In this document: piece by piece, positions 33,065 through 54,522 of the stretch
How positions within the stretch are numbered: position 1 is the stretch's first letter
Layout: each line of letters starts with the position of its first letter
Source: Rugalucina vietnamica
Lineage: Eukaryota; Mollusca; Bivalvia; Lucinida; Lucinidae
NCBI GenBank assembly: GCA_964017185.1
Contig: OZ024874.1
Span: 16,363,957 to 16,427,956, forward strand
Length of the DNA: 64,000 nucleotides
Direction: 5' to 3'
Position numbers and translations under genes: made by a program
The notes under the pieces: generated by a model
Database searches by the model: none
Told to the model about the DNA's origin: nothing
What the model saw: only the letters and a program-made list of their open reading frames with translations

Positions 33065-33310
33065 GGTGATTATCACATCTCTACAGGGGGTCATAAAGAG
33101 GCCCTAAAGGATAATACTTGTAGTTCCACTGTTTATTGATTTTATGGTCCCTGATAACCTGTGCAAGAAAACTGCCTCTGCAATTGATATTGATTTTTCC
33201 TGTTGGCCACTACATGTATTCTGAGTTATCGTCAGGGCACTAGGTTTTCTAATGCACTGTCCCTTATCTAATGACCCTCAATAGACCTGGAAATAGGTCT
33301 TAAAGTTATC
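33065..33310 (+). repeat. Dispersed repeat F, copy 1 (CARD gene 3' end)
   Basis: About 240 bp (ggtgattatcacatctct, ggtcataaagaggcc, tattgattttatggtcc, tgagttatcgtcagggca) recur at 43630-43865 in the same orientation. On the minus strand this copy supplies AATAAA-type signals (tttatt at about 33132-33137 and 33017-33022) that could serve the CARD gene mRNA. Confidence 0.75.
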
Positions 33311-33393: not shown

Positions 33394-33983
33394 TTACTTT
33401 CTTTGCCCGCGGTTATGCTCCTTATGATGACTGCGTACTACGCGTGGTTGCATTATAGTAGGAGACTGGGTTGGACTAAGAGTATCTGAATTGCATGCAG
33501 TACCGCCACTCCCACAGGGTGATATTGGCATTAACTGTAGCAAAAAGTCTTGCTTATAATATGGACCACAGAAATCAGATGCCAAATTGTTAAATGGTAA
33601 TGATACATCTGGGCTTTGACAAGGGGTTATGTCTTCGAATTCGTTTGTATAGGGACTTTGTCTGCCATTGCCTCCCACTGACGGAATACTTGCTCCATCA
33701 TCGAATATTTTCGTTCCTTCTTCCTCAGTACTGCGCGATGGTGTAACATCTTCTGACTTGCTCTGAACAAGGGTATCTCTGATAAGCGTAGCACCCCTGC
33801 AGGCTTTAACGTTTATTGAACACGCTGAGATAGTGGTGCTTCCGGGCGCATTATGGTCATCACTGAATTCACAGCTGATGATCGCTTCTGTTAGTTCGTC
33901 ATGGATCTTATGGTTTGAGGGACGGCCGTCTTCTGTATCTGTATTCTCGGGATACTTGTTTTCTTTATTAAAGTCGAATTCAT
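33394..33983 (-). CDS. CARD gene terminal exon
   Basis: It encodes 195 residues and the TAA stop. The sequence is rich in acidic residues first (DEFDFNKENKYPENTDTEDG), then Ser/Thr-Pro motifs (TPSRS, CQSPDVS, ISPC, LSPTQSPT), and ends in a basic patch (RVVRSHHKEHNRGQRK). It is a disordered tail that could be phosphorylated or bind partners. The acceptor is cttgaacag|. Confidence 0.75.
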
Positions 33984-34991
33984 CTGTTCAAGAGATTGAT
34001 ACATTAAACACCTTATATATGTACATTCATAGAAACAATAAGGTAAGAACTTTTATGGTCAGCATGAGCAGCTTTAGAACTAAATTTCTTGCATTTACAT
34101 GCGTTGCTTGTTCATGGATAAACACACAACTGGTCGATGTTTTGTTGTCCTTTCGCACAAGGTAATTGCAAATGGTTAAAGTCTTGTGCATAAATTTTAG
34201 ATTTTGCTTAATTTCTGTACTTTTTTTTCTTCATAACAATTAGCATGTGGTTGACGCGCTTATGAAGAGGAAGATGCAAGCGGCCTCAAAGCATTGGATT
34301 TAAGTAACACACAATACATTATAAATTACCGTCAGTCGTTTGATGTTCTTGCTGATTTTGGACCCAGTTTTCGGTATACTTTGCTTTATCCACCTCACTC
34401 GTCTGGTATATAGCCTTGTGCAGACTTAGCTGAAGCTCGGACTCTGTGGGTATTTCTAATAAAACAAATAAGACTAATGATGTGTTTGTATAATGTGTCT
34501 CCCAACAGTCTCAGAAAACAAATGGTTAGCTGTTATCAGTATACATGTTAAACCTAGGCAAAGGAATATTCTAAAAGCAAAAAAGGAATAAAACTGTTCA
34601 ATTGAGGGAACATACATGTATGACCAGAAATTCCGTTAACGCAAACATTTTCATGCCTGATCGTTCATATTCAAGCCCGTAACGTGTCAAAATATACAAT
34701 TGTTGCATAACTATCTAGAAAAGGTCCCGATAATTATATAATCAAATACATTATTTTTAAACAAACAACTTACCTTTCGTCCAATTAACAAGGTATTCTG
34801 CTGTATATGTTATGTCTTTACCTTCAGATTTGTTCCTGCAATCATCGCCAATTGCTGACATCATGAAAGGACAATCCGCATTATCTTCTGAAATTAAGTA
34901 TTCATTAGCACGTTTAATGAAACGGGAAGACCTACACACAAATGTAATTAGATTTTTATTGACATTCTCAAAATTACTGTATTATATACTG

Positions 34992-35039
<48 letters not shown>

Positions 35040-38000
35040 GAATCGTAACAATATGTCCCCAAGAATTTTCGAGTTAAAGGGTTAAACGATGATTATTTTA
35101 GCTTTGTTACTGTATGATTCCTATTCATTGGATATTGGGGTAAGACTAGTAAAAAACTGATTTTCATTTCGATTAAAATTGAATGAGATTATTTGGTCGT
35201 CTTATATAATGCAAATCAGGAAAGATTTGCTCTGTGCTTGCGCACTTTTGAACCTCAAAATGATCAAGAAACAATGTCAGCTGCTCCCCTCTCCAAAATT
35301 CATGAAAAAGAAGTTAAGTTTCACGACAAACAAGCAAGTAATTTAAACCATCATAATTCCTATGTTTAATTGAAAGGGGGATAATTAAAATTTTATTCAC
35401 TTTTATTTCTTTAACGTGTGAGTCATCTGCTAAGAGGTACATGGTGATTTTTAATGGAGGTTTATAGCCATTTATTTGTTTGCGCATGCGTACTGTGCTT
35501 TACTACTTTTAGCATGCCTGTGGTCGGCATCGAATAACTCCTGAAATACTCATTGAAATGAAATTCTATTTCTTGTATTTGGAAGTCTGATATCTAATGC
35601 AGAAGAAGAAAATGCAATGATTTCTGATGATATCATAGCTTGCTCAAAATTTAGTGGAATAACACTGCTGCGCTTCTTTTTTGTTCAGTATAGTTTGGCT
35701 TCCGTAGCATGTTTCACCCTTTAGATTTCGTAATTGTGATGGCTTCTAGCGGCTCTATCTTTAAGTCAATATGTCGTTTGAGGCGTAAATATTCGTCGAT
35801 AAACTATCGACATCACGTGATATACGCGGACATCACGTAGTATGTGTTATTTTGATTTGAAAAGGTACAAGTAGACAAAGATCAGGAAAAGGCGCAATCA
35901 GAAAAAGATCCCCACTCCAAAAACCGAGATGGGAAAAAACTAAATTAACAATCAAGTACTTATACCATGAAAACATATCGTAAGCCGAATGGGCAGCTAT
36001 TTTCCCAATAGGTGGCCACTCAGTTACCTAAACTTAAATAAAAATATGAAAACATACATAAGGTGCCAAGCACAAAAATTAAAAAAAACACCAAGACATA
36101 AAACAGAAAGAACCACCACAGAAGTATCGCCTTGGAACGATCAGCAATATAAAATTACTTGCGGGCTTAAATCGATTTTACATGGTCATAACCTCACCCT
36201 CAGCTTCTGCAGTGGTTCATAACATTTAGTTAGTTCTTCGGTCCTCGTGGTGAATCTCTAACTAGTCAATGAAGCATCAAGAACAAACAGATAAATCACG
36301 ATAAACATCCTGATGAATCAAAACCGAGGACTCAACAGATTCAGTAAGACATTCTGCAAAATTAACACAGTTTACAAGTGACTTTTAGGCTGTACCTGAA
36401 ACGTCTAACATTTTCGCTGCAATGTCAAGATAATTTGCTATCTTTAGAGCATCAATGAAGGCAAGAAGACAGCTCGGCTCTTTCTGCAACAGTTTTCGTA
36501 AAAGCCAAACGACCCTTCCACGTCGCTGAGTAGATACTTTCAGTATTTCGTCGAACTCCGGTGCTTTGAATACTCGCTCTTGTACAAGTTTCTGCCGTAA
36601 CCTTGTAGGTTCGATTTCGTTCACTAGATAGGCATAATTGCTCAGAACATTCTTCCGTATGTCTGTAAAAATATGATGTGAATAACGCACAGCATGTTTA
36701 TTCTGGACAGCTTTAGAACATTAAGAAAAAGGCAAGCATCTTAATTAAATGATATATTGTGATCATGTAGACCACACGTTACAAGGTGGATTTAAAGGAT
36801 CTCAGTTTTATTTTGATTCCCTAAAATGACAATATTGTGTGGCAAATATTGAATTTATGCAACGCTATTGCTTGTCTATTCTGTGTTTAGAGTTTTGATC
36901 ATGTGAAATCAAATCAAGCATGTCCTCTCGACATGAAATGTTTGAAGTTAATCTTAATGCTCTTTTGGCGGTAGAAATGCCATTCGATGCCATAGAAAAA
37001 GACGAAAATTATTGTGGTAACCTCTATATTAATATTGTAAAATACCTTCTGTCGATACTCCCTTGTTCTCGTTTTCCTTACGACACAGCACATCCAGCAC
37101 AAATGTCATATTCTGCCTCTCCAGATCTTTAATGAATCTATCTATTGCAGTTTGTCCTTCTTTTAGCATGGCTTCGACAAATCTTTTACATCTAATCTTT
37201 CTTTGGTCAGAAGATATAATGTCTTCTGTCCTTATATTCTTGTTCTCAACACAAGAGACGAATAATTTTGGTTCAATTTCATTCTGGAGAAACGTCAGAT
37301 TTCGTCTGATTTCCTTTGGCCCGACTCGATACGATGTGGTGGTATCTATAACAAAGAGAAGAATTAAAACGTTGACGATATAGAGCATAGACCATCAAAA
37401 TAGGGATACGTTTTAATGGAAAATACTCTGTAGTGCTGCTTTAATATGTACATGTATTATTTAATATTTGGTATTTGATGAAAAATACTTCTTTGGAATA
37501 AGGCTTGCCAAATTTTAAATCTCGCTGGCTTACAGAATTTTCATCGTATATCGCTCAAATAATAGTCACATCTACATTTCTTTCGTAGTGTTTCATTGTA
37601 TATTTGACCTTTTTCACCCCTAGTAAACCTTATTTGCTTTCATGTCGATCCTTTGCTTACAGTGTCACTATTTCATTTGTTTCTCTTTGCAAAGGAATGA
37701 GCAAAACATGAAATTTATACTTTACAGTGTATATGGTGATACAGAATATCTGATACCATTTCAGCCTTCAATAATTTTGTTTTGGAAACATATGCAATAT
37801 TAATTATCCCATATTTGACGAATGGATTTTCCCATCATTATCAATTGGATGAGTCTTTCATTTTGAGGGGCATCAGGAGTGATTTTAAAATTTTATTCAA
37901 TAATTCGATGTAAATTCTCTACTACCATGTGACGCCGCGTTCTGCGGCGTCACATCTGGGGCTATTCTGTTTGCCTATGTCCCATAAAAGGGGCGCCAGG

Positions 38001-41000
38001 CTTAAATGAGTTAAAATCTACATCAAAATAATCTACAATAATTAAAGTTTTGTTTGATATACAATCATATGTATGTTGACGTATATTTTGTGCATTTTAG
38101 AGTCGATTGAGCATATACGAGGGTCATTCAATAAGTAATGCAATATTGGCCATAATGTTTTGTTTGAACACGTTATTTAAGTTTGATTTAGCTTTCTTGA
38201 AACATAAATTCAATTCGCCCTCTGCAAGACAGCTCAACACCTATTCACATGCTCTACTTCCTGTTGCCTAGCAACAATAGAACACTGTGCAAAGGCACTT
38301 GGCCACGACTCTTAAAACCGTTGCCATGGTGACAGGAAAACCAAAATAAACGTATTCTCTTTATTTTCTTACACCGAACTTAAAATAGTTGCATTTAAAA
38401 TTCAAGATAATGCAATCTGACTGATATATTTTAAATGACACCCAATCAAAGTTGAAATAAGGACTAAAATTTCTCGATTGAAGGGTGAAAAACGGGGGTA
38501 GAGATACAATTTCTGCTACAATTTGACATCTAGTTTGTTTAATCGAATATTTATACGCCTAGTTATATCTGCCATTGGCACTTTGTAAACCACTTGCTAT
38601 AAAATACAAATCTCAGATAACATATTTCGTTGCCTAGCAACAAAAATCTATGGAAAATGCATAAAACCGAAATCACAGGTTCTGGCGTTGCTAAGCAACA
38701 GTTGACACGCGTGGGGATGTATGAACATTGCAGTTGCCTAGAAAGCTCTGGCTAAGGTGACATTACACAAACATGTTCATAGAGAGCTATTTAAAACACC
38801 ACCAAAGAAATACCAAGGCTTTATGTTTATTTATTTAAGTTTTGAAAAGTGGTTTTCGCGGCTACGACACCTTCGCTGCCATTCTATGGTTGCTAAGCAA
38901 CATAAAGTGTATGGTCTGATTTAGTTGATGTTTATTTTCCTAAATACAGATTGAATCAAACTTTCAGAAGTTAAAAACACTACCTCTGTCAGATAAAAAT
39001 ACAGAAAAATATGCTACATATTGCATTACTTTTTGAATGACCTACGTGTAGATACAAATGGCTTGCCTTTATCTTTCTCTGTCACAGTTCTTAACAAATC
39101 CAGCTGCCCATTTGCTTTTATTTGCTTCTCAAACAAACAAATTGCTCTTTCTGGTAATGACAAAAGCTTCCGTAGGAAAGCCTCTGTTTTCGTCGAAGAA
39201 GAATTGTGACCATCGTTCATTTGAGAAAATTCCTCTCTTGCAGCAAAATCTATTAGTTTGGAACTAGAGAACACTTTAAGGTAGCTCGTTACGTCTTGCA
39301 ATTCTCTTTCCATGAACGTAAAATACTTGACAATGAACTTCTTTGATAATCTGCATGTGCATTTTTCTAAAATGAATAAATAATTGGTACAGCTGTTTAA
39401 TCATGAAAGAGATTCACTAGTTGAAAAAGCATCCTTATGGTATCAAGGGAAATGTTAAAGTGTTAAAGTTTAATGAAACTTTGGACAATATAGCAGATGG
39501 CCCAACTCAGCTTCCAAACAGCAGGTATTCCGTGTAACACACACACTATGAACAATTTACACTGCAATGTAAAATAACTTATCGTTCGTTTGTATATTTA
39601 TTATATTCTCAAGGTTTGGCAACTTCCTCTTTGAAACGAAAACGGACAGTGCACTGGCGTTTTTCTCTAATTGTAAGTTGTAAGCGTGAAAAAAATAACT
39701 GAGATTGAAACAAAGCATGTATATTTTACACACATTCGAAGATAGTTTTACTAATAGATAAAACAGAACATACTTGCTATCAGACTCCTTTCAGGGACCA
39801 GCAGTTCGATGTTTACTTTCTGGATGTCTCTTTCTTTTAGCGTTTGTAGCTGCTCTTGAGTGAATATTTGATTGACTAGCCTCTGCAAGTTTATATTGTT
39901 ATCTAGTAAGTCTATGAACTTGGAAACTGTTTCTTCTGATAACGCGTCAAACTTGATGCGGATGGAAGAGTATTCAAACCCTGACAAAGAAGCACTCCCT
40001 ATTTCCATCGCCTGCAAATGAGAAAAAAATGTTGACAAGGATGTGTATCAACTGTCATCATAGGATCATAATATGCATGTTGCTTACTGACAGGGATAGA
40101 GTACTCGTACGTGTACTTGTACGCGTACCATTTGAGTACAATTTTTACAGTACTCAAGAACAGTGTTCAGCGAAATTTGTAAGTACTAGTACTTATGCCA
40201 AGGTTACATTTGCGTCGATCATCGTACGGTTTTTCGGTCTGCGATTTTCACTACGATTTTTAGACATCGTTGGTGATCGTGGGCTACGACGTATGTGTTT
40301 ATAATTTATACTGGCATCGTACGATTTCTTGCTGTGCCTTTTGTAAACGTTCTGATACAAAAACGAAGATGCAAAAAATGACATCTTACGATCATCGCAA
40401 GCTAATCCTAGCCCAAATGTAATCTAGGCATTACTCAAGTATTGATACAAAATGCCCTGTAGATGAGAAAGCGTAAGGCTGAGTACTTTCTGAGCACTTT
40501 CAATGTTTAACTTTGAATAGATCAAAGATCATGTCAATTTATTAGAATGTACTTCTTTTCTATAAAAAGTTTATTAGGTCAGTAAGGGTACAGTGTCCTT
40601 TGGTCAGTCTTATTATGTATCAAATTCCAGTGGTAATAAATAATTATCCTTTGCATTGACTGGCTATTGTTATATTTCCACACCTTCTACTACATGTGAT
40701 TTCTTAGAGTATTGTCACACTTGCTATCCTGACGTCACAAATCTGACAGGTTTAAATTTTTTACATGCATGTAAATATGATTATCCAAACCTTCTTGTAT
40801 TATGATTATCCAAACTTTCTTGTATTATTGTAACTACTGTTACAATGAATATGCTAAAAGTTCATTTTATTCAATTATATATCATACCGAAGCATGCGAA
40901 ATACTGCTAAAACATATTTAAAGCAATGTGCCTTATAATGGATACATCTAGAAAACTAAATATACAGTTAGTAGTTTGTGAGATGCTTTCATCAAACCAT

Positions 41001-44000
41001 AAACGAAACTAAGTTTCTGAGATTTCACCACAATCTAGACTTGTATGAAGATTAATAGATGCACTGTTATACTGTTAAATACTGCTTTAATAGTGTTTCA
41101 ACCAACGATACCTATAGGAGGAAACTAATCAGTTGATAGTTTAGTACGCTTGACCTTCCTACAATGTGTCGACTTCATAGTTTTTGTTTCTCTATCTAGA
41201 ATATACAAATTATTCGGATTTCAAGGTTTTACATTGATCAGTGATTAAATCACATTCACTTAATATGCCTCTTGAAATGAGATGGCAATCCAATAAAATG
41301 GTTGATTTCGCCATTTTACACATTTAATAACATTGTTGTAACTTAGCTTCATTGAACGTACGAGGGGTGTTCTTTAATTCTTGTCATCGACTCAATTTCT
41401 CCTATACCAGAATCTGTACCAGAGCAAAAAATTTGGTAATTGTAGATGGGTTCTTTGTGATATTGAAATCACCCAATAATTTTATGACGGTGCAATTGCT
41501 CATAGCAAACTGAGACTCTAAAGAGAGGCACCCTTATGACACTGCTAATACCTTCTTCATCCTGTCCCAATAAACAGCATAATGTTTGAATTAAAATTTT
41601 ATACCTTTGGGATCTCCATTACCTTGCAAGCGCATTGGTGAAAAGTAATTTTCTTAAAACAGAAATTACAATTTTTACGACAGCTGTAAACATAGTACTA
41701 TGCCAGTTTTTACGTGTTGATAAATTGATTGAACATCGCAATAGAAGTTTCAGAGCATAATAATTTCCTGTCCAGTTATGACTCATCCAAAATGTTAATG
41801 CTGCTTTGTGTCAGATCTTTGCTGTTTCCATTGATATAAGTTTTGGATTATTTATCCACTAAAATCTTGGTTTATGAGTAATAACATTTTGAAAGATAAC
41901 ACAAAATGTCAGTGAAAGCGCTGTCCATACCACAATAATAGCATGTACAAATACTACTACAACTTCAAAAAATCTATTTACTCGATAAGTTCTCAGTAGA
42001 CGCGTTTTGGTTGACCTTTTCAATCATGAAATTTGACAGTGTTTCTATTATGATAGAGACGGGCAGCTCTCTAAGAAATTAAGCACCTGCTCCACCTTAT
42101 ATGTGAAGGAAATGTTAAATTGCCTGTATAGTAACTTACAGCGAATGTCGATTTAGACCATTTTAGACAAACTTGAGATAGATATCAATTTGAGATATTC
42201 ACCACACAATCCAATTGACAAAATTTAAAACTACGAAAAGGTGTAACCTGCGCGGTGATTTTGAATGACGTATATTTAAGATATTATGACGTCATAAAGC
42301 AGGAGCAATAACTCTATAAAGTCAAAATAAAAATATTATACAAAAGTGTTTTCTGTTGCTCATATGAATGACAACATAATGTGTAAAATAAAAGTGGGCC
42401 TGTATATACTACTGCGAAAGTTATAGCCTTTCCTATACTAGGGACCGAAATAACATTTTGTAAATTAACTGAAAATTAACACAGTGTCATTACTGTACCC
42501 TGTTTTAAAATACGATTACTATATGACCGTGCGTCGGACAGCAATAATTTGGATACCAGTCTGATCAGAAAAGATCTGGCTTTCACCACATATGAACAAC
42601 AGTCTCATTGATTGTCCACAGAAAAAATAATCAAGCAAGTGACAAGTATTAAAGAACACCCCTCGTACATGCAGCCAAGACATTTGGAAATCCCTAGATA
42701 ATCTTTAGTGAATAAAATATAAAGGTTGATCCTTTGGAAGCAGCAAAAACATTCAAAGGGAGATAGTATGGACTATATTGTACAATTTCGGGTAAAGAAC
42801 CCTCATCAGTAGCCTTTTTAAAACCGGCGACGAAAGCCAGACTATTGCACTGTAATTTCGAAATTTTACACGAAGTCTACATCAAAGACATATTCCTAAA
42901 CGGGGTCAAATAATTTCAAACATTGCTTAGAAGTATGTTTCTAAACGTGAGTGTTTTGAACACTCTGAATATCTTTACTGATCTCAAAAAACCTGAATAA
43001 AAATATAATCTGCACTATGGATGATAATCTTTAGTGACTATTTACCTCTTCTTCCAATAATAAATTGAAGACGCTGTTGTTAGATATAACTGCAGACATT
43101 TCCACGTCCGATGCCGAGTTTTCTCCGATGGTATTCAATTTCAATTCCATCATATTAGCACTGATACTTCGGTTTGCTAAAAAGCATAAAAATGACACTT
43201 AAATTAAATTATCATATAGGCATATTACAGAGCCAAAGGAGGTAAAACTATATTTAAATCAGCTAACGAAAATTATACGATATTGATTAAATATTTGTTT
43301 ACATTGAGTTAATCCACACTTTTTAGACCAGTCACTGAGAATCTCATTTAAATGTATCTGTTTTTTGTCTTCAGTACACTAGTACTATGCATGAAGGCCA
43401 AGACACAACGAAGTATGTCTTTAGTGGCTGTACTTTCCATACAATGAAAACAAAGACATAGACAAACTGCACTTTGTCACAAAGCTGAGTTCAATCTTTT
43501 TTGCACTAAAACGTCATGTTATTGCTAGTTAACTTGCACTGCTGATCCCATTATAGATTCACATAATAGATGTATAAAGGCAAATTTTCATGATGTGGTT
43601 TAGTCCATGCTTTCATACTGCCATAATAAGGTGATTATCACATCTCTGCAAGGGGTCATAAAGAGGCCCCTAAAGGAAAATACCTGTAGTTCCAATGTCT
43701 ATTGATTTTATGGTCCTTGATTACCTGTGCAATAAAACTGCCTCCCTCTGCAATCAATATTGAATTGTCCTACCTGTATTCTGAGTTATTGTCAGGGCAC
43801 TAGTTTTTCTAATGCTCTGTCCCTATTCTAATGACCGTCAATAGACATGGATTTAGGTCTTAACGAGAAGTGAACACATTAATGAGAAAGTGGATAGGCC
43901 ATACCGCGGTTTCGACTATTAAAGTCTCGTCAGTGACCCTTTAGATTTGGCAACATGGAGCCAAAGATAATTACTGAAATTTCGCAACTTTCAACAGGGA

Positions 44001-47000
44001 AGTGGGTACAAAGACTAGTATTATCTAAATGGGACCAAATATATTAAACAGTGGTTATAAAATGAATCTTGTCCGATAATAACTTTCTGATTTCTCAGAA
44101 TATACTCGCTGATCTCAAAGGACCAAAAAAAATATAACCTGCACTATGGATGATGTACGGGGAGATTTTAGGGCCGCCACACGGCACAACACCAGCTGCA
44201 GTAATAGCAAATAAAATTAAAACTGAGATCCTTAAAGAGCAGTGAACACATTAATGAGAAAGGGGATGGGCCATACATTTTCATTCGCCTTCGGCTCTTG
44301 AGGTCATAATGAAAGGTCAGTGAAAGTGTGGTATAATTTACAAAACACTGAACTGCAAGCAAAAACCAGTTGATTATCTATAACTAAATTAAATATTTTT
44401 ATAGAATCGTCTCTTACCCAACTATTAATGCACAAATTTATACTAAAACAAGATCGTAACTCGAATACTGTATTTAAACACTTTTAAAATAATTGTGCGT
44501 ATGTATTGTTTAGCGTCTGACTGACTCTTATACACCTCGTGGACTTCCATTGACAAAATAGAGTCAGATGCTTCGAAGATCGAAACCAATACTGTTTATA
44601 GATCAAAGCAATATTATACGAAAAGGTACAAGTAGGCAATGATCAGGGAAAGGCGCAATCACTCCAAAAATAGAGGTAGAAAATTCTAAATTGACAATTA
44701 GGCACTTATGATTAGAAAACATATCATAAGCCGAGTGAGCAGATATTTTCCAATAGGCGGCCACTCAGTTACCCGAACTTAAATAAAATATGAAAACGTA
44801 TATAAGGTTCAAACAGCACAAAAATCGATTCCAAAACATAAAACAAATGGAACCACAACAGAGGAATCGCCTTGGAAAAATCAGAAATATAAAATTACAA
44901 GGGGGGGGGTGCTGAAACCGGTTTTACAGGCGCCTTAACTCCCCCTCATCTTCTGCAGTGGTTCACAACATTTAGTTAGTTCGTGGTGAATCTCTAACTA
45001 GTCAATGAATCATCAAGGACAAACAAATAAATCACGATGAACACCATGATGAATCAAAACCGAGGACTCAAAGATTCAGTTAGCTGAAATGACCTCAGGT
45101 AAAGGCGTCTTTAACCCAACATTAAATTTAGAAATCAATTCATAGTGTCTGCGATAAATGTCGAAGTTTATGATAACGATAGCCCTGCTGGAGAAGTTTG
45201 GCTGTTAAACATTTATTACACGCGTTGAAGTCCGCTACATGATTGCAGACTCAAGCAATCCTAATAAGTTGCGAAATGTATACACCATAAGAAACACGGC
45301 GAAGAACGCCACCATCCAAAACCGGAAAATTTACTATATCAAATTAAAATCATCGCGTTTATCCAATTTTAGAAGAAACAGATCCATTTGCAATAGACAG
45401 ATGTAAATTCGAAAATGGGGATTCGGTATCTGAGCCAACTGTAGTTCAGGTGGATAAAATTGATTGACCATGCCTGTCAATGTTCAAAAGGTCATCGAGG
45501 TACCTAGAAGTCGAATTACAAGCCTCGATAATATCAGCTTGATTGACACGGTTATGAGAATCAATGTAATCTCTTTCGTAACAGTATAAAATAAATCAGC
45601 TTCAAGAGGGGTGCAATTTGTACCCATCGGAATTTTCAACAATTTGTCTGTATAACTTGCTTCCGAATCTTATATAAATATTATTCAGGCGATAGGATAA
45701 GGCGTCTCGTACATTCTGACATGACTAAAGTGTATATCGACATTGGTCAGAGAAAGTGAAAAAAGGTTTTCTTTCATTTCAGGCCAAATAAAGTGAACCA
45801 TAGTTATTTAATGCTCTTTCAAAGGTCCACTCTATCAAATCGAGAAGTTTTTATTTATTCAGATTTTGCGACGATGTGGTATACACAGAAGAAAAATCAT
45901 ATGTGGACAAGCACGTCGCATGGAACCCTCTGCATTTCAGTTTACTGAGCACCTCGCCAGAATCTTTATTGACCAAAACCAAAACCTACTTTGCCTACTT
46001 ACACCGTTTTATTTGAAGATTTATACACCGTCTCAAAGTATCGTATGACACGAGATTTGATAGCAGTAAGACAGGAAAGCAATAGTTTAGAAAGTTCAGT
46101 GGTAGTACAAGAACTAGAATTTGCAATAATTTACTTTTATGCGGTCTTTAATAAAGCTTAGGCAACCAACCTAAGTGGAAGTGTCATAAACGATGAACAG
46201 TAGTTTAACTGGTATTTTTCTTCCATGGATTTCACATCCGCTGCAGATAAATGATTATTCCCTCTTTATAACAGCCATTTCGGTTCTAGCTAGGATCTTG
46301 AAATCAATAAACATGGATTTCCTCCTTTTTACAGGCCGTTTGCAAAGTTAAGAAATATGATAATTGCTTTATAAGTCAAATCAAAACTGTGTGTCTTGGT
46401 ATATATCTTATAAAAGAATTAGCAATAATACTCAGTCTGAAATAACACTTACTGTTCCTTTCGTTTGCCGGAACAGTCGAAATGTGGCCATGGCGTGGCA
46501 TTAGCTCCAGAGAAAGTTCATTTACTGAAAAGAAACGAAAGTTAACTTTCACATATAAACGCAACATATTTCAAAGCAAACCGACACACATATTGATTAT
46601 CATACGCCATTCAAAAACTTATGGTTTCATTTTTTATCATTTTTTCTTGGAAATAATTTTAAAATAAATATGAAATCGTAATATAAATCAGTGAATCGCA
46701 ATCTGCCTTTCAAAATCTCACGATAATTGCGAAATTTCACATTAAAGATACCGTATGGTTTATCTTTATTATATAAGCATTAATTGTGTTTAAATTTGCG
46801 TTGAACATCATTGCTCTAAACGTTATACATACTCAGTTGTACAACATTTAGCCAAAAATCCTCAGCACTGATGATAAAATGTGATTTAAGAATTGTATAA
46901 TAACAATCAAAGACGAACACATACGTGGCAATATGCTATCTAGCTGTTTATTTTTTAGCTGGTTGGCAAGCTCTGGGTATGATGCTTTCAGTGCAGTTTC

Positions 47001-50000
47001 AAACAGACTGAAATTCTTCCTTCCGCCGCGCTTAACATGATCGACTAGTATCTTAACCCTCGTGTGTCTTGAAGGTGTCACATAAATGTCTTCATGGTCC
47101 ATGAATGAGAGAAACCCGGAAACCAGTAAATCGTCTATAATATCTCGTGGCTCTAGATTGTCCTCTAAGCCTTTGGCTAGAAACTGCAGTTCGCTGATGA
47201 TCATTTCTGAATCCGGAGTCATGGGGTGTTTAAGTGGAAGTAACAGGTGACACTGCAGGGGATAAGGTACATGTATAAAAAGCAATTGCTTTACTCCAGT
47301 GTAACACGGTTATAGGTAAGATAATGAACGTGGCCCAGAATTACAATCTTCCCTCAAAGTTATGGGACACATTAGTTAAGATGGCGAATTCAAAAAGATG
47401 TACAGGGTGTCACAAAAACGCAACCGCTACTAAAAAGTGCATAATTTTTTCAATAATATAGATATAAGTGAGATATATAATACAATAGTAGTTCTATTAT
47501 ATGTAATCCTTAAACTGACACCCGTTTTGCTAGGTGGTTCTTCAACAGAAAGTGACGTCATAGTAAATCTGTGATGTCACTTCCTGTTGTTTGCTGCAAC
47601 TTGCAATCCCGGAAATGGAAAGCCGTTAACAAAATACAATTTCCAAACGTTCTTAAGGCTTTATTATCTCTTACAAGGGGTATAACCTTGAGACAAATGC
47701 CATAATAATCAGAAAATTAAGAGAACTACTTCAAAAATGGACAACATTTGCTGAAAACTGCATTCCAAAATAGGAAGTGGGCAACCATCAAAAGTGTCAT
47801 GTAAAATTTCCAAAACTCCGAAAGCAGTCATTTGCAATAAAGTCGGTAGTTCTGGGTATAGGTGTAGTACATAATAACAATTCTTATATCTCTGAAGACA
47901 TTGTTTTGAAGCAAAGTTTGATATAGTTTTCTGTAAAAGTAAAACAGGCATTGTAGCGGCTACATTCTATTGGGAAATTTTACATGACACTTTTGATCTT
48001 TCTTGAATTGTCAAGCACTTCCTATTTTGGAATAAATTTGCATTGTGGCAACTTTATCCACTTTTATCCATTTTAAGAAGAAATTAAGGCTTGAGAACAT
48101 TTGAAAATTGCATTTTGTTAAATGCTTTCCATTTCATCGATTGCAAGTTGCAACATACAACAGGAAGTGACGTCACTTCCTGTTGAAGAACCACCTAGCA
48201 AAACGGGTGTCAGATTAAGGATCAAATATAATAGAACTACTATTGTGTTAACTATCTTACTTATATATATATTATTAAAAAAGTTATGCACTGTTTAGTA
48301 GCGGTTGCGTTTTTGGACACCCTGTATATAAATAAAAATTAAAACTGAGGTGAACACATCAATGAGAAAGGGGATGGGCCATACCGCGGTTTCGACTATT
48401 AAAGTTTCGTCAGTGACCCTTTAGATTTGGCAACATGGTGCCAAAGAGCATTACTGTAATTTTGCAACTTTCAACAAACTAGTCGATACAAAGACTAGTA
48501 TTATATAAATGGCACTAAATATATTAAACATTGGTTAGAAAATGAATCTTAACCGATAATAAAATTTTGATTTCTCAGAATATCCTCGCTGAACTCAACG
48601 GACCAACAAGAAAATATAACCTGCACTATGAATGATGTACAGGAGACTTTTAAGGGCCGTCACACGGCACAACACCAGCTGCAGTAATAGCAAATAAAAA
48701 TTAAACCTGAGATCCTTTAAGAGCAGGGAACACATCAATCAGAAAGGGGATGGGCCATACCGCGGTTTCGACTATTAATTTCTCATCAGTGACCCTTAAG
48801 ATTTGGCAACATGGAGCCAAAGAGAGTTACTGAAATTTTGCAACTTTCAACAAACTAGTCGATACAAAGTCTAGTATTATCTCAATGGGACCAAATAAAC
48901 TATAAGACTTAAGTTTAGCAATTTTTTCATTCATCATAATTTTCAAAATCAAATGTTTGAAAACTTTTCATACGCTTTTAATATGTCAAGTGATGTTCAA
49001 ATTCATGTTTCGAGACGAGTTTGTGTGCTTTTCTCATGTCCATGAGTTTCTACGTTACGTTTAAAAAATCATGCAAATCACGTGCCTAGCATTCCACGTG
49101 CGTCACATGTTATCAATTTTTGCCTTGTTTGATTGATAAGAGTGTCATAATGAATAAACCGGAATGACATTCGAAAAATTCCGTGAGGGGACGCCGTCAT
49201 GGCCTGACGTTAAACCAGCGTAGCATGAAGATCAATATGATAAGTGCAGACATGAAGAAAAAGGAAGCCAATTGAAATTTCTAAGCTTACTAGAGTACGA
49301 TACAGTCTCCTAAAACCATATTCCATCAGCTGATATCATCAAAAACCGGCATCATGACGCCAGACAACGTAAGGCTATCATGATATAGGGCAATGCCAAT
49401 TTGACGTCATAGTGACGTAATCGATTTTTAGGCAACCTTCGAGCATCAGGTTTGATAATTTGCGGCATGGAAAGATGGATTTGTATTGGAACAGCTGACA
49501 GGAAACAGCCTGCGTGGTGCGAACACCTTGAATATCGCCGTTACGTTTTTGGTCCTGTAAACGTTAAACGTAAACGTGCAAGACTAGACTTGACACCACA
49601 TCAAACCTTATTGGCCTACTAAGCGAATGTTTTCTCGTGAAAGCGAAATCGCACGTCATTTCAGCAATTAAACACATATTAGTTCAACTCGGGAGAAAGA
49701 CCAGGGAACAAAATGACGTCAGTTACGTCATACACCGGGGGCGTTACCTGGTACCATAATGGAATCAAATCTCTACGATCATGGTACTGTACCCTTTTTG
49801 AGCACAAGAAGATGTTAAAATGACTGTTTTAGGAATAAAAGGTTAACTTTTCATATGCCGAGAAACAATGTGAATTTTGAGGTGACACCCCTGTAAACTT
49901 TGACGTAGTGTAATTGCGTCCGGAGAAGATGGATTTCCGAGGAAAAGTAAAAATTGTGGTTTCTTAAGGATTAAAGATTGATGGGTTGAAGTGTTTAGTT

Positions 50001-53000
50001 CAGTTCATCTTTATACCAATTTGCAATTTTGAAATCAAATAAAAATTGCTAAACTTAAGTCTTATAGTATATATTAAACATTGGTAAGAAAATGAATCTT
50101 AACCGATAATAAATTTTTGATTTGTCAGAATGTCCTCACTGATCTCAAAGGACCAAAAAGAAAATATAACCTGCACTATGGATGCTTCTTAGGGCCGTCA
50201 CACGGCACAACCCCAGCTGCAGTAATAGCAAATAAAAATTAAAACTGAGATCCTCTAAGAGCAGTGAACACATCAGTAAGAAAGGGGATGGGCCATACCA
50301 CGGTTTCAACAATTAAAGATTCGTCAGTTAACCTTTAGATTTGGCAACATGGATAAAATATACCAAATTCAAAACCTTTAAATTACCATGTAAATGACAT
50401 TTTATTTGACACACCTATATATTTTCGTACAAACTGTTGCTAATTTTAGCGGTAATATTAACTTGTCACCTTCACTAAGGTGGGCCTTAACTTTAGGAAA
50501 TAATTGTAATTCTGGGCGGTGAAACGTCACAATAATTGTAAAAAAAAGAGTAAACTAAATTGGACATTTTAAATGTCTATCGACATACATGTATGCTTGT
50601 AAAGAAACTTAACACCGGGGTCCAACTGATGTTTTTCTTTTGCTCCGGAGCTAGTAAGTTATTCGGTGCCCAGGGATCTCCATCGTCGGGCAGCTTACTG
50701 AATCTGTGAGTACTGGTTTTTTGATTCATCAGGATGTTTATCATGATTTATTTGTTTGTTCTTGATGATTCATTGACTAGTTAGAGATTCACCACGAGGA
50801 CCGAAGAACTAACTAAATGTTATGAACTACTGCAGAGGCTGAGGGTGAGGTTATGGCCATGTAAAATCGATTAAAGCCCGCCAGTAACTTTGTGTTACTG
50901 ATCGTTCCAAGTCGATACTTCTGTAGTGGTTCTTTTCGTTTTATGTCTTGGTGTTTAAAAATGTTTGTGCTGTTGGCGCCTTATGTATGGTTTCATATTT
51001 TTAGTTAAGTTAAGGTAACTGAGTGGCCACCTATTGGGAAATAGCTGCTCATTCGGCTTATGAAATGTTTTCATGGTATTAGTACCTGATTGTTAGTTAG
51101 GGTTTTTCCCACCTCGGTTTTTGGAGTGGCAATCTTTTTCTGATTGCGCCATTTCCTGATCTTTGCCTACTTGTACCTTTTTAACAGTTAATGTTCAAGG
51201 ATATAATATGTACACAGGATGTGTCAATGACATTACGAAAACATGCCCGTGTAAGATTCAGACTTTTCTTGAGTTGTAAAAAGTGAACATTTTCAGTAGA
51301 ATTTGTTTAATATATTTTTTCTTATTTTTGCTCAAAACACAGCATCTGGTTACACGTTGTACGAGTACCCATAATCTATGTTTCGGAGCAAAAATAAGAC
51401 AAATAGATATACCCCTCTATATCCCAGTTTTGCTATATAAAAGCAGGGTTCAGTATATTTATCTGGCTTTCGTTGCCGGTTTAAAAAGGGTCACTGATGA
51501 GGGTTCATTACCTGAAATTGCTCAATATGGCCCATACTACCTCCTTTTGAACATTAGGATCTAGCTTTTATATTCAAGGGGGGTATTCCCTATACGGAAA
51601 TGTTTTCGTAATGGTAAACGATGAGGCAGTAATTTCTTATGTTTATCGCGTCCAACCTTTTTTTACTAATTTTGTAATAATCAAGTGTACATGTACATTG
51701 TACCTGCACTTTGTTCGCCTGGGGATAACAAGTAGTCTAGCTTTTCCTCTGTGAATGCATTGAAGATTTTAGAAGTCAAACCAAAAATATTGCTTTTTGA
51801 GCTATGGACGAGTGACTTGATCAAAATATCAGCTCGGCGACTTCTTGATGGTTCTTCCTTGATACTTTCCATATCTTTGTCCGAGAGCACTACGGTTGCA
51901 TACAATTTGTCCGCCAGACCATGCTTTGGCTCCAGTTCATCCTTCAATAGTTTGTATTTTCTTCTGAAGAGGTCTTTTAGTGTCGCCCATTGCTTATCCG
52001 GCTATTAACAAACAATCAATATGTTTTTATGGACTTATGTGTGGTCATGGTATATACATGTTTGAAGATTTACCTGTATAAAAAGCATTGGTTATTTTTG
52101 TCAACAATGTTACATTCTTTAGCATGCTTTATCATGTGGCTGTTGAATATGTTGCAAATGCATGGATTTGTGTATACATGATTGTGAAATGAGTGGTCAG
52201 CTCAGAGCAAGTGAGTCATTTTTCAGTTACTTCCAGGTTGAAATCGTTGGACCCATTTTTCTTAGCTTTTTGAAAAAAATAAGCCAGATTTTTCGATGTA
52301 GTCATTGACTTCAATCATATAAGAACCTGAAACAAAATGCATGTCAATAAGCGCACACGTACCGCCCCAAGTTACCCACTCTCAGAATTTTCCAGAAAAA
52401 ACATGTTTACACTAACTTTTCCCAGAGAAATACATTTCCATGACCCCAAAATAATTTTTAATTTGTCAGATTATGTATCCTAGACATTTAGGCTTTGTGT
52501 AGTTTTATTCAAATGCATTACATTTTCCAGGAAATGGGTCCCACGAAAACCAGTTACATTTCCATTTTTACACCAAGCTATTTAAAATTTTAAAATAATA
52601 ACTATATGGAGTCATTCCTAGTATCTGTGACGTCTATTAGCAATAAATGCACGTCATCATTTGATTGACAGATTCAAGGAAACAGTAGATTTCTGTTTTA
52701 CATACCCCACCCACTCATGTCAATATTGATAAATTCTTTAAGTAACAATAAAAGTAACAATAATTATCAATTTACATCAATTCATTCCCGAAAATGAGGT
52801 AAGTTGTTTTTTTTAAATTTGGATATCTACAATTAACTAAAACTGTAATTGTAAGCCCCTTCATGAGTGACTTACCGTGGAAGTAAAACTCAATTTTCCA
52901 GTCGGTGACATCAGTCCACTAGATGACGGAGAAACACCTGTAGGAAAAGATAGAAATGAATTTAAGGACTTGGAAGTTGTTTGTTAAATACATTGATATA

Positions 53001-54209
53001 TGTATACTTGGATACTTACTTGCTATCCCTGCTTCTACTAGAAAGTGAAATTCGCCGCTCCTTTGGAAATAAAGATGTAATGCTCTTGGTCTACAGTCTA
53101 AAGGTAAATTTAATATCCTTTAACAAGATTGATTAAAAGTACGACATGTTAGGCTGTATTACACAGATGCTTGATGCGCGGCCACTGTCATTTTAATAAC
53201 CTGGGTGGCTGCATTTAACTCTCTTAAATAGCACCACGAGTTCATCGACGTTATTTTATAAAGCTTGCCAAATGGTTTCAATTGTATGAATTTTACAATG
53301 CATTTTTCTCTCAAACATTTTAAGATATACTTTTTAAAGTCTATTAATGCTTTTATTACAAGGATGAGTCTATTATTTAGTATTTTATAATGCATAACTA
53401 AGTAAGATTTCTTCTTGAGACGTCTCCGGCCCACAATACAGGTTACATGGACGTAAAGTACTGGTATGGTAAGACCTGGACGCATAAAGGAGCCTATGAG
53501 CCATGCCGGAATTCTGAGCTGGCATAATTTGATATCCTAGTTCTTCACAATAATATTGTGATTGCCGTGGCAACCGATACATAAAGTGTCTTCACCGGGG
53601 CAATTCCAGTGCATATACCTACCGCTTTCCCCATGGTATGAGGAGTATGCAGAATCTACTGATGGCAAATAGAAGTTAGAGTATGTTGCTGACTTTGTCG
53701 GCGTGTCACTCACAGGGAGCCCTATAAAGAATAAAACGATATATACATTTTCATGGCGACAATTATTGGTTAACATGGGTTGACAGCTACAGACAAATTA
53801 AATATTTCGGCACCATGCTTCATATTTACAAAACACAGAAAACTATTGTTAAAATTTATTTTTCATAATTAAAAAAAACCCCAAAAACAACAACAACATT
53901 TTTCTGTCTTTTGGATGAGATCAAAATTGGCAAAGGCAACCACCAAAGAACAAAGAACACATAGAAAAGTAGTTATTCTGAACTGAGAAGAAACGTGCAT
54001 TTTTGGACCAGAAGCTCTCTATATGGCAATCGTTGCTTATAAAAGTCCTATAAAACGTCCGTAACATTCATTCCCCATCCTATGATCGACTGTTCACTTT
54101 TTTCTTTACCTGGACTATCACTATACGACAAGTCAAATCTAGGCTTTTTTGATGGTCTTTCTGTTTGTTCTTCTTCTTGATCGTCGTCCCTTAGATAAAG
54201 TATATACAT
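33394..54209 (-). CDS. Multi-CARD protein, 15 exons, 1025 residues
   Basis: Exons, 5' to 3': 54209-54110, 53721-53623, 53097-53020, 52937-52876, 52001-51704, 47206-46925, 46524-46453, 43176-43046, 40011-39774, 39366-39046, 37345-37046, 36662-36396, 34887-34774, 34455-34330, 33983-33394. All junctions are GT..AG and keep frame; lengths sum to 3078 nt. Residues 1-113 are low complexity with an acidic stretch and a possible nuclear signal (PSKKPRF, 19-25). CARD domains fall at about 114-212, 213-306, 454-560, 561-660 and 661-749. Residues 331-453 are unassigned, and 750-1025 form a disordered Ser/Thr-Pro-rich tail. CARDs mediate death-fold assembly in caspase and innate immune signalling. No enzyme domain is seen, so a scaffold role is inferred. 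The first ATG has an in-frame stop 9 nt upstream; a possible acceptor at 54190 leaves room for further 5' exons. Confidence 0.75.
34035..34185 (+). repeat. Dispersed repeat D, copy 2 (CARD gene intron)
   Basis: It matches 22790-22945 at high identity over about 150 bp. It lies in the last intron of the CARD gene, starting about 50 bases upstream of the terminal exon acceptor. Confidence 0.75.
34330..34887 (-). CDS. CARD gene exons 13-14 (linker)
   Basis: Exons 34887-34774 and 34455-34330 encode polar sequence (CPFMMSAIGDDCRNKSEGKD, TAEYLVNWTK, ELQLSLHKAIYQTSEVDKAK, ENWVQNQQEHQTTD). Two nearby alternatives at 34930 either shift phase or run into a stop, so the acceptor atttcag| at 34888 was chosen. 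Confidence 0.65.
34993..35036 (+). repeat. (AC)n microsatellite
   Basis: About 21 uninterrupted dinucleotide units in an intron of the CARD gene. Confidence 0.97.
35861..36346 (+). mobile_element. Family A element, complete, no internal repeats
   Basis: It begins aaaaggtacaagtagac and ends near gaggactcaacagattcagt. The two halves are joined directly at the junction aaatcgatttta. It lies in intron 12 of the CARD gene, about 50 bases downstream of the exon 12 donor. Confidence 0.75.
36396..36662 (-). CDS. CARD gene exon 12: CARD 5
   Basis: It encodes 89 residues and is the most typical CARD of the set: IRKNVLSNYAYLVNEIEPTR, KLVQERVFKAPEFDEILK, GRVVWLLRKLLQKEPS and CLLAFIDALKIANYLDIA. The acceptor is tttacag| and the donor ttcag|GTACAG. 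Confidence 0.8.
37046..37345 (-). CDS. CARD gene exon 11: CARD 4
   Basis: It encodes 100 residues. CARD-like helices are EIRRNLTFLQNEIEPKLFVS, IRTEDIISSDQRKIRCKRFV, EAMLKEGQTAIDRFIKDL and MTFVLDVL. The acceptor is gttatag| and the donor agaag|GTATTT. Confidence 0.8.
37927..37955. repeat. Perfect 12 bp hairpin
   Basis: The arms atgtgacgccgc and gcggcgtcacat flank the loop gttct. It lies in intron 11 of the CARD gene and stands out as GC-rich in an AT-rich stretch. No poly-U terminator or gene context is seen. Confidence 0.8.
38115..39050. mobile_element. Mariner-type MITE abutting CARD exon 10
   Basis: Terminal inverted repeats read acgagggtcattcaataag with gtaatgcaatat at the left and, in reverse complement, cgtaggtcattcaaaaag with gtaatgcaatatg at the right. 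The interior contains several gttgctaagcaac and ttgcctagcaac type short palindromes. There is no transposase. Its right end overlaps the splice donor of exon 10. Confidence 0.75.
39046..39366 (-). CDS. CARD gene exon 10: CARD 3
   Basis: It encodes 107 residues. CARD-like helices are FTFMERELQDVTSYLKVF, LIDFAAREEFSQM, KTEAFLRKLLSLPERAIC and LFEKQIKANGQLDLL. The acceptor is cattttag|. The donor C|GTAGGT lies within the terminal inverted repeat of the neighbouring MITE (38115-39050). Confidence 0.75.
39774..40011 (-). CDS. CARD gene exon 9 (possible half CARD)
   Basis: It encodes 79 residues with SEETVSKFIDLLDNNINLQR, LVNQIFTQEQLQTLKERD and IELLVPERSLIA. The pattern resembles the first helices of a CARD but lacks a convincing second half. 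The acceptor is tttgcag| and the donor agcaa|GTATGT. Domain identity is uncertain. Confidence 0.65.
41361..42665. mobile_element. Mariner-type MITE, 1.3 kb, TA target
   Basis: The left end cgaggggtgttctttaat and the right end, reverse complement of the same with a short extension (cttgtca / gacaag), are both flanked by TA. It lies in intron 8 of the CARD gene. No transposase frame is present. Confidence 0.8.
42697..43037 (+). repeat. Single satellite monomer between 15 bp direct repeats
   Basis: One diverged unit of the 373 bp family (cctttggaagcag, acaatttcgggtaa, ctgcactatggatga) is bracketed by identical copies of gataatctttagtga at 42697-42711 and 43023-43037. The bracket looks like a target-site duplication, although 15 bp is unusually long for a DNA transposon. 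Confidence 0.7.
43046..43176 (-). CDS. CARD gene exon 8
   Basis: It encodes 43 residues (ISANMMELKLNTIGENS, then SVFNLLLEEE). The acceptor is ttttag| and the donor gaagag|GTAAAT. The donor lies 8 bases before a 15 bp direct repeat that brackets an inserted satellite monomer. Confidence 0.65.
43630..43865 (+). repeat. Dispersed repeat F, copy 2
   Basis: It matches 33065-33310 over about 240 bp with scattered substitutions. It lies in intron 7 of the CARD gene. Confidence 0.75.
43870..44225 (+). repeat. Diverged satellite monomer
   Basis: It is related to the 373 bp family: gagaaagtggataggccata, tcgtcagtgaccctttag, ctgcactatggatgatgtac, gccacacggcacaac. It forms a subfamily with 48345-48900 and 50069-50360 (ccgcggtttcgactatta). 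Confidence 0.75.
44621..45087 (+). mobile_element. Family A element, no internal repeats
   Basis: It begins aaaaggtacaagtaggc and ends gaggactcaaagattcagt, with the same internal order as 35861-36346 and a run of nine G at the central junction (44901-44909). Confidence 0.75.
45180..45345 (+). repeat. Dispersed repeat E, copy 2
   Basis: It matches 31650-31835 (tgctggagaagtttggct, aataagttgcgaaatgta). Confidence 0.6.
45430..45870 (-). pseudogene. Penelope-like reverse transcriptase fragment
   Basis: On the minus strand the motif IPMGTNCTPLEADLF matches the conserved PMGTNCAPL-type block of Penelope-like elements. It is preceded at 45700-45640 by NNIYIRFGSKLYRQIV and followed, after a one-base frameshift, by the region that encodes the SRYLDDLLNI catalytic motif. 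Frameshifts and stops make it inactive. It lies in intron 7 of the CARD gene. Sequence from 45870 to 46120 is not assigned. Confidence 0.65.
46453..46524 (-). CDS. CARD gene exon 7 (linker)
   Basis: It is a 72 nt phase 1 exon with acceptor cttttcag| and donor aaca|GTAAGT. It encodes LSLELMPRHGHISTVPANE, with no domain. Confidence 0.65.
46925..47206 (-). CDS. CARD gene exon 6: CARD 2
   Basis: It encodes 94 residues with CARD-like helices: LQFLAKGLEDNLEPRDIIDD, FLSFMDHEDIYV, RHTRVKILVDHVKRGG, NFSLFETALKASYPELANQL. The phase-compatible acceptor is gattcag| at 47207. A stronger-looking acceptor ccctgcag| at 47253 also leaves an open frame but is phase 0 and would not join to exon 5, so the shorter form was chosen. 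Confidence 0.75.
47403..48324. mobile_element. Foldback Tc1/mariner-type MITE, 922 bp, TA target
   Basis: The ends cagggtgtcacaaaaacg and, in reverse complement, cagggtgtccaaaaacg are flanked by TA on both sides. Inverted similarity continues for about 400 bp on each arm (gacacccgttttgctagg, caaaagtgtcatgtaaaa), leaving only a short loop. The arms have diverged from each other. It lies in intron 5 of the CARD gene. Confidence 0.85.
48345..48900 (+). repeat. Satellite array, part 1 (diverged subfamily)
   Basis: About 1.5 units of the ccgcggtttcgactatta subfamily, with period near 375: gatgggccataccgcgg at about 48373 and again at about 48747. It is interrupted at 48900 by the element at 48900-50068 and resumes at 50069. 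Confidence 0.8.
48900..50068. mobile_element. MITE inserted in the satellite array
   Basis: Terminal inverted repeats of about 27 bp begin ctataagacttaagttta at the left, with the reverse complement at the right, followed by gcaattttt-type sequence. Satellite sequence stops at accaaata on the left and resumes at tatattaaac on the right. The interior of about 1.1 kb has no coding frame. Confidence 0.8.
50069..50360 (+). repeat. Satellite array, part 2
   Basis: This is the continuation of 48345-48900: ctgcactatggatg, gccgtcacacggcacaac, gatgggccataccacgg, ending at atttggcaacatgg. Confidence 0.8.
50700..51190 (-). mobile_element. Family A element, no internal repeats
   Basis: It begins ttactgaatctgtgagtac and ends gcctacttgtacctttt, the reverse order of the plus-strand copies. 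The two halves join at aaatcgattaaagcccgcc. It lies in intron 5 of the CARD gene. Confidence 0.75.
51285..51560. repeat. Hairpin repeat B plus a satellite fragment
   Basis: Bases 51300-51450 match family B with the central stem shortened (cttatttttgctc, gagtacccataatc, gagcaaaaataagac). Bases about 51455-51560 are a reverse-orientation piece of the 373 bp family (cctgaaattgctcaatatgg). The CARD 1 exon ends 140 bases beyond. Confidence 0.6.
51704..52001 (-). CDS. CARD gene exon 5: CARD 1
   Basis: It encodes about 99 residues with a clear six-helix CARD pattern: LKDLFRRKYKLLKDELEPKH (helix 1 region), LADKLYATVVLSDKDMESI, EEPSRSRRADILIKSL (the conserved R..ILI.L helix 4 stretch) and the C-terminal IFNAFTEEKLDYLL. 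The acceptor is ttaatag| and the donor gcag|GTACAA. Confidence 0.8.
52876..53721 (-). CDS. CARD gene exons 2-4 (N-terminal linker)
   Basis: Exons 53721-53623, 53097-53020 and 52937-52876 encode Ser/Thr/Tyr-rich sequence (TYSNFYLP, YSSYHGES, PSSSGLMSPTG). The middle exon (26 codons, phase 1 on both sides, donor GTAAGT) can be skipped without breaking the frame, so it may be a cassette exon. Confidence 0.65.
54110..54209 (-). CDS. CARD gene exon 1 (possible start)
   Basis: From the ATG it encodes 33 residues: an acidic run DDDQEEEQ, then PSKKPRF, a plausible monopartite nuclear localisation signal, then LSYSDSP. The donor is ccaG|GTAAAG. The start context is weak. The alternative acceptor ctaag| at 54190 would make this an internal exon of 80 nt. 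Confidence 0.55.
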
Positions 54210-54522
54210 GTAGTTTTAATGATTTCGTATGTGTTAATGAGTTAATGCTAATCACAATTTGCCCCGGCCGAGGGCAACCCAATCTCTTGCATGCTAATCC
54301 AACACTATACCGTTGTAAAAGCCGGCTTGTACCGCAAGAAAATACAAGTGTGTAGTATATCAAACACTATTACATTTCCCCCCTCCATTTTAGAATCCGA
54401 ATCCCCGAGTCCCTATTAGACGTTCAGGAACCTAAATTTGACACGGATGAGCATTGAGCCACCCATATCATCTGATGGGTTAGTTTATGGTTCGTACCGC
54501 AAGGCGATACAAGTTTGTAATA

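Follow-up and report, generated by a model that had tools for sequence, protein, structure and literature searches.

A candidate five-CARD adaptor gene, conserved in three related proteins, in the lucinid bivalve Rugalucina vietnamica

The window, a stretch of 64,000 nucleotides from the bivalve Rugalucina vietnamica, carries on its minus strand a gene model that runs from 54209 to 33394. The model was rebuilt from this strand, read from 54500 to 33300, and consists of 15 exons that together give 1025 codons followed by a TAA stop (Table 1). All 14 introns are of the GT-AG type, 12 of them in phase 1 and the other two in phase 0. The gene extends over 20.8 kb, with long introns of about 4.5, 3.3 and 3.0 kb, and the nearest AATAAA 3' of the stop in exon 15 lies at 33137. 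An earlier sequence-only reading had proposed these 15 exons and 1025 codons; its frame, ends and stop were reproduced, but its exon 3, its start ATG and its acceptor between CARD1 and CARD2 were not.

Just past exon 9, a short open stretch of the minus strand (39563-39666) reads KNASALSVFVSKRKLPNLENI.. and could be taken for an exon. As an alternative exon (39666-39563) it was rejected: it is incompatible with the phases of the model, and P0001, a relative described below, has no matching sequence.

Several other features were found in the window. The foldback element in the CARD1-CARD2 intron (Table 1) is probably a mobile element. A tandem array at 4427-5650 is made of 3.3 copies of a 373-bp unit with 98% matches; pieces of this unit are scattered over the CARD-gene introns (42711-43025, 44100-44209, 48526-48692, 50076-50230 and 51462-51535), and another is present at 29-102. 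On the plus strand, 12130-13980 is an uninterrupted frame of 616 codons with the look of a multi-pass membrane protein; no Pfam family exceeded the cut-off in it, and it may be otopetrin-like. On the minus strand, an exon-like ORF at 15166-15630 contains an F5/8 type C (galactose-binding) domain, for which both PF22633 (36.9 bits) and PF00754 (30.4 bits) scored above cut-off.

Table 1. Coordinates of the modelled exons and of the foldback element within the window.
Feature	Position	Strand	Evidence or remarks
Exon 1 (earlier model)	54110..54209	-	Homologous part 54110-54191, RDDDQEEEQTERPSKKPRF.., with second half of the NLS-like motif
Exon 2, low-complexity linker	53623..53721	-	62.5% identity to P0001 (tblastn)
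Exon 3 (earlier model), 26 codons	53020..53097	-	No tblastn match; gap in P0001, P0002 and P0003
Exon 4, linker VSPSSSGLMSPTGK	52876..52937	-	76% identity to P0001 over 21 residues (tblastn)
Exon 5, CARD1, phase 0-1	51704..52001	-	Pfam CARD 27.1 bits; 74% identity to P0001 (tblastn)
Foldback element in CARD1-CARD2 intron	47398..48329	.	148-nt arms, 92% complementary; 20-nt arms outside them
Exon 6, CARD2, phase 1-1 in model	46925..47206	-	Pfam CARD 35.5 bits
Exon 7, linker	46453..46524	-	Full protein alignment with P0001; no tblastn row of its own
Exon 8, middle region part 1 (MELKLNTIGE..DVEMS..EEE)	43046..43176	-	74% identity to P0001 (tblastn)
Exon 9, middle region part 2 (SSIRIKF..NIELLVPE)	39774..40011	-	67% identity to P0001 (tblastn)
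Exon 10, divergent CARD3 after conserved KCxC	39046..39366	-	hhalign and held-out HMM; no Pfam CARD match
Exon 11, CARD4, phase 1-1	37046..37345	-	hhalign and held-out HMM; no Pfam match
Exon 12, CARD5, phase 1-1	36396..36662	-	Pfam CARD 33.5 bits
Exon 13, conserved stretch after CARD5 (CPFMMS..YLVNWTK)	34774..34887	-	47.5% identity to P0001 (tblastn)
Exon 14, ELQLSLHKAIYQ..EVDKAKYTE	34330..34455	-	79% identity to P0001 (tblastn)
Exon 15, Ser/Pro-rich tail, TAA stop	33394..33983	-	52% identity to P0001 (tblastn)

A chain of in-phase exons picked by eye is weak evidence taken alone, and for this reason relatives of the encoded protein were sought. The full-length model was searched against about 5.8 billion proteins, of which the 8000 candidates sharing most words were scored. 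The sole match was P0001, an unannotated protein of 1025 amino acids (longest contig, 3,595 nt) with 64% identity to the model over 98% of the model's length. When residues 440-830 of P0001 were the query of a second search, three of 5399 candidates were returned: P0001 itself, P0002 (1083 amino acids; longest contig, 3,674 nt) and P0003 (1114 amino acids; longest contig, 4,539 nt), the last two sharing 42% and 41% identity, respectively, with these residues of P0001. When the alignment of the relatives served as the query, with the 8000 candidates sharing most words again scored, two of the three known relatives were recovered and no new ones. Since this third search missed P0003, further relatives may escape searches of this kind.

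P0001-P0003 lie on contigs of 3.6-4.5 kb, and their frames run without interruption for about 3.1-3.3 kb, against the 20.8 kb covered by the gene in the window. We infer from this that the three sequences are transcripts, three intronless copies being less likely. When P0001 was compared with the window by tblastn, the minus-strand matches followed the exon order and their ends coincided, or nearly so, with the modelled splice sites; the exceptions are exon 3 and exon 7 (46524-46453), the latter resting on the full protein alignment. P0002 and P0003 have the same architecture: their five CARD positions align in the same order, as does the region that separates CARD2 from CARD3 (hereafter the middle region). 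Because P0001 matches the model at full length and the other two align along this shared architecture, the comparison indicates that the 15 exons are one gene. This agrees with the sequence-only reading, the CARDs and the middle region lying in one frame in all three relatives. Long introns that contain repeats, and a CARD1-CARD2 junction that is not settled, would suit two adjacent genes, one with CARD1-2 and the other with CARD3-5, joined by mistake; since each of the three relatives has all of these parts in a single frame, and their longest contigs measure 3.6-4.5 kb, such a mistake is scarcely credible. It is very probable that the locus presents the architecture of one conserved animal gene, encoding a five-CARD protein of about 1,000 residues.

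The same alignments corrected the model at three points. Exon 3 (53097-53020), opposite which all three relatives have a gap and tblastn gave no match, is probably not an exon, or else is species-specific. A direct splice from 53623 to 52937, which skips it, is in phase and yields GESGVSPSSSG, three residues short of the GENGSFGVSPSSSG of P0001; this is a candidate junction, not fully settled. The start is probably misplaced as well. Instead of the ATG at 54209, the relatives have a different N-terminus, and homology to P0001 starts at 54191, with an Arg codon and at a possible acceptor (CTAAG/G), the six residues ahead of it (MYILYL) being probably non-coding. P0001 has 18 residues before the point that matches 54191. 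An upstream first exon was looked for on the minus strand between 54.2 and 64 kb, as a frame that opens with ATG and has a good phase-2 donor, and eight weak candidates were obtained, none of them similar to the relatives. A scan of the same interval for the N-terminal motifs gave one match, at 54388, which lacks a donor of suitable phase, and tblastn of N-terminal pieces against the window found nothing convincing beyond exon 1. Finally, the homology of the CARD2 exon continues upstream of the modelled acceptor at 47206, to about 47240, and P0001 carries 18 extra residues at the CARD1-CARD2 junction. The true acceptor is perhaps at 47252; tblastn against the window revealed no additional short exon between these two CARDs.

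Five of the exons had been read as encoding one CARD each. When single exons were compared with the Pfam CARD family (PF00619; gathering score, 23.9 bits), CARD1, CARD2 and CARD5 passed (three out of five, scores in Table 1), whereas CARD3 and CARD4 alone gave no match to this family. In each of the four proteins (the model and P0001-P0003) Pfam CARD was matched in three stretches. Held-out HMMs were then built from the 16 rows of four CARD positions, and the fifth position was scored together with 2000 shuffled sequences. With a profile of CARD1, CARD2, CARD3 and CARD5, all four CARD4 rows scored above every shuffle. With a profile of CARD1, CARD2, CARD4 and CARD5, three of the four CARD3 rows did so (E values of 2.2e-6, 1.2e-4 and 2.3e-3), and the window's own CARD3 row (E of 0.3) fell beneath 3 of the 2000 shuffles.

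Profile-to-profile alignment with hhalign gave a similar picture. CARD4 scored above 60/60 shuffles with each of the other four CARDs, its E value against CARD5 being 1.6e-5; as a yardstick, CARD1 and CARD5, both accepted by Pfam, matched each other at 2.7e-4. Against CARD4 and CARD5, CARD3 reached E values of about 0.002 and scored above 60/60 shuffles; against CARD1 and CARD2 it was at shuffle level, its score being reached by 26/60 and 9/60 shuffles, respectively. Searched alone as four-row profiles against the PDB, neither CARD3 nor CARD4 found a CARD structure. The reading of five CARD exons is thus upheld by Pfam for CARD1, CARD2 and CARD5 and by the held-out profile for CARD4, which appears to be a solid CARD, and CARD3 is probably a divergent CARD that is supported mainly through the relatives.

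A profile of all five CARDs was also run against the window's 910 six-frame ORFs of at least 35 codons, and exactly the five CARD ORFs, themselves among the training rows, cleared it, the next best ORF having an E value of 0.07. A 16-row profile that left CARD3 out (CARD1, CARD2, CARD4 and CARD5 from four proteins) matched in the PDB the CARDs of APAF1 (E of 1.1e-8) and caspase-9 (7.5e-7), followed by those of CED-3, RIG-I, CARD8 and BCL10 (2.5e-4 to 0.0041). The best 60 of 64 distinct PDB sequences (E up to 10) were mostly CARD proteins; three were designed, and among the weakest matches two (E of 0.49 and 1) were unrelated.

To trace the history of the domains, a tree was built of 20 CARDs, from five positions in four proteins. 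It contained one clade per position, with support of 0.948-0.983. Identity between CARDs within one protein was low (mean of 17.9% over 40 pairs, range 10.9-25.0), and that between positional counterparts was considerably higher (mean of 51.6% over 30 pairs, range 31.7-87.9). CARD5 is among the best conserved, with 88, 53 and 48% identity to its three relatives. Net charge also varies among the CARDs: CARD2 is negative and CARD5 is +4, each in 4/4 proteins. The clustering by position indicates that five distinct CARDs predate the split of the four sequences and that each has been retained since. In the model, CARDs 2-5 occupy one exon each with phase-1 introns on both sides, the start of the CARD2 exon being unsettled; single CARD exons flanked in this way have the form that exon duplication would be expected to leave.

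The remainder of the protein had been described as otherwise disordered, a description that the relatives contradict: both the middle region and the stretch after CARD5 are conserved in 3/3 of them. Exon 2 carries conserved DTPxKS and VDSAYSSY motifs, given here as in P0001. The middle region (43176-43046 plus 40011-39774) is conserved in 4/4 rows, in all of which DVEMS, EEE, SS, I and KF are invariant, and a pattern read by eye, strands flanking helices, suggests that it is probably a beta/alpha module. The window and P0001 rows of this region had no Pfam match, and those of P0002 and P0003 gave sub-cut-off matches only (Trp_repressor, MMR_HSR1, FTH and WxLIP_PGBD); the whole model gave a zf-CRD match at 408-468, below cut-off (E of 0.058). 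A middle-region profile found no convincing structure in the PDB, the best match being a designed binder (E of 0.062). A sixth CARD was considered for this region and rejected, hhalign scores against CARD1-CARD4 being at shuffle level; the score of 15.6 against CARD5 was above 60/60 shuffles, over 15 columns only.

The beta/alpha pattern raises a further candidate. The middle region could be a TRADD-N domain that has diverged, with the protein acting as a nuclear regulator parallel to DEDD2 and NCOA6, in which death-fold contacts are coupled to nuclear events. In the excerpts of PMC8195603 available, TRADD-N is given an RRM-like fold with a Ser (uS) motif in the strand 2-3 turn, large expansions in bivalves are reported for proteins that combine TRADD-N with death-fold domains, and DEDD2 is called nucleolar. 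The bivalve expansions and the location of DEDD2 would fit this reading, as would the basic clusters at the N-terminus, and the invariant SS before SIRIKF, set in a strand-helix-helix-strand order seen by eye, resembles the uS motif and the RRM-like fold. However, the middle region has no TRADD_N Pfam match up to an E value of 10, and a first helix of the TRADD-N type is not obvious in it. The best 30 rows obtained with its profile consisted of the 4 member rows plus 26 shuffles, and included none of four human TRADD-N fragments. In hhalign, its scores with fragments of DEDD/DEDD2 and NCOA6 were reached by 1-3/60 shuffles, and that with TRADD by 59-60/60; the hhalign test is without power, because the TRADD-N families miss each other in it (E of 0.11-0.26). 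A TRADD-N identity for the middle region is best treated as a lead, and the nuclear-regulator reading built on it is doubtful.

At the N-terminus, K-K-x-K/R is present in 4/4 rows, and a second basic cluster lies upstream of it in the 3/3 relatives with a full N-terminus. This basic N-terminus resembles a nuclear localisation signal; K-K-x-K is a common sequence. Nuclear localisation of the five-CARD protein is a tentative prediction, possible rather than probable. At the other end, the tail motif SPxGSxGTxC(N/Y)S is kept in 4/4 rows.

The view that the protein lacks an enzyme was borne out, no enzyme domain exceeding the Pfam cut-off in the model or the three relatives. NACHT, helicase, caspase, kinase and BIR/RING domains were absent by Pfam up to an E value of 1 from the model, which lacks its true first exon, and from P0001-P0003. 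In these relatives CARD was the only family above cut-off; the few sub-cut-off matches in the model and relatives were at chance level, and NCBIfam, a prokaryotic library, gave no match.

Characterised CARD proteins usually combine one or two CARDs with a sensor or effector. Taken as a whole, the best explanation of the locus, and one whose chances we judge evenly balanced, is a conserved, enzyme-less five-CARD adaptor in which each CARD would dock a partner. Its predicted layout runs from a basic, NLS-like N-terminus through CARD1, CARD2, the middle region, CARD3, CARD4, CARD5 and the conserved stretch to the Ser/Pro-rich tail. Each CARD would serve as an individual socket into which one particular CARD protein docks, such as an initiator caspase, a BCL10-like adaptor, or a protein of the APAF1-like or RIG-I-like kind. 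By bringing several such partners together, the protein would assemble a single signalling complex, which the middle region and the tail might regulate or localise, possibly in the nucleus. Because the CARDs are divergent within the protein and conserved by position, a hub with five specialised sockets is favoured over a set of equal nucleators. Any specialised use of the CARDs, not docking to different partners alone, would be compatible with this conservation by position, and the heterotypic mechanism, although plausible, has in our estimate a little less than an even chance. A more elaborate version, a nuclear switchboard in which five specialised CARDs surround a TRADD-N-like switch and join apoptosome, RIG-I-like and inflammatory pathways, would be decidedly improbable.

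Two other functions were weighed against the adaptor. In the first, the string of CARDs would be a ready-made seed for one type of CARD filament, the pre-wired nucleator suggested by the sequence-only reading. Excerpts of PMC10055258 state that death-fold adaptors can hold nucleation barriers and can be templated by other death folds, and five CARDs per chain would raise the local concentration; in the same excerpts, self-assembly is reported for fewer than half of 109 human death-fold domains. If the CARDs seeded one type of filament, their interfaces should have stayed similar, but the CARDs share 10.9-25.0% identity within the protein, each is conserved by position, and their net charges differ. 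These comparisons slightly disfavour a pre-wired nucleator, and we regard homotypic seeding as unlikely. In the second, the protein would act as a decoy or inhibitor, capping or sequestering the CARDs of caspases or sensors and dampening cell death. This would suit a protein with no effector domain above cut-off, and the CARD profile does match CARD-only proteins (6j52, E of 1.4e-4; ICEBERG, 1dgn, E of 0.0087). Known CARD-only inhibitors, however, are small single-CARD proteins, and the conservation of the middle region, the N-terminus and the tail points to a function beyond capping; a decoy role is not a probable one.

Returning to the conserved adaptor, the CARD module is known, and the five-CARD arrangement was not found described in open-licence PMC text, among the matches listed, which is compatible with an undescribed protein. 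If the adaptor reading is true, five different CARDs with no effector would form a natural hub where death and immune pathways could meet. They would also provide five separable baits, an experimental handle on CARD-CARD contacts in invertebrates with large death-fold repertoires.

Among known systems, the apoptosome, an oligomeric CARD platform, offers a working analogy for the five-CARD protein. APAF1 and caspase-9 have the closest CARDs among solved structures, within the best 60 of 64 PDB sequences, and the CARDs of CED-3 and CED-4 are weaker matches to the profile (2.5e-4 and 0.0083, respectively). In APAF1/CED-4 and caspase-9/CED-3 a single CARD is combined with NTPase/WD40 or protease domains; in contrast, the window gene has five CARDs and no NTPase/WD40 or protease domain above the Pfam cut-off. 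BCL10, CARD9/CARD11 and RAIDD are enzyme-less CARD adaptors with one CARD each, and in CARD9/11 and RAIDD the partner module is a coiled coil or a death domain. BCL10, RAIDD and CARD9 matched the profile of the window CARDs more weakly (E of 0.0041, 0.013 and 0.021), and, unlike RAIDD-type adaptors, the window protein has no Pfam death domain. Viral copies were also looked for: 32 pattern matches were obtained in viral contigs, none of them a relative by tblastn.

Closer to bivalves, the available part of PMC8917759 reports no CARD in mollusc IAPs. The excerpts of PMC8195603 describe death-fold domains beside a small beta/alpha module (NCOA6 and DEDD2 clades, expanded in Crassostrea); in the bivalve TRADD-N proteins, as probably in the window protein, death folds adjoin such a module, but the proteins described there are mostly DED-linked. 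Lophotrochozoan RIG-I-like receptors, which according to the portion of PMC8998645 available have two tandem CARDs, share this tandem arrangement with the window protein, in which their helicase and RNA-binding domains were not found by Pfam. In oyster caspases each CARD is encoded by two exons, as stated in the accessible text of PMC7836458, compared with one exon per CARD in the window gene. These caspases are themselves bivalve CARD proteins, and thus possible partners of the five-CARD protein.
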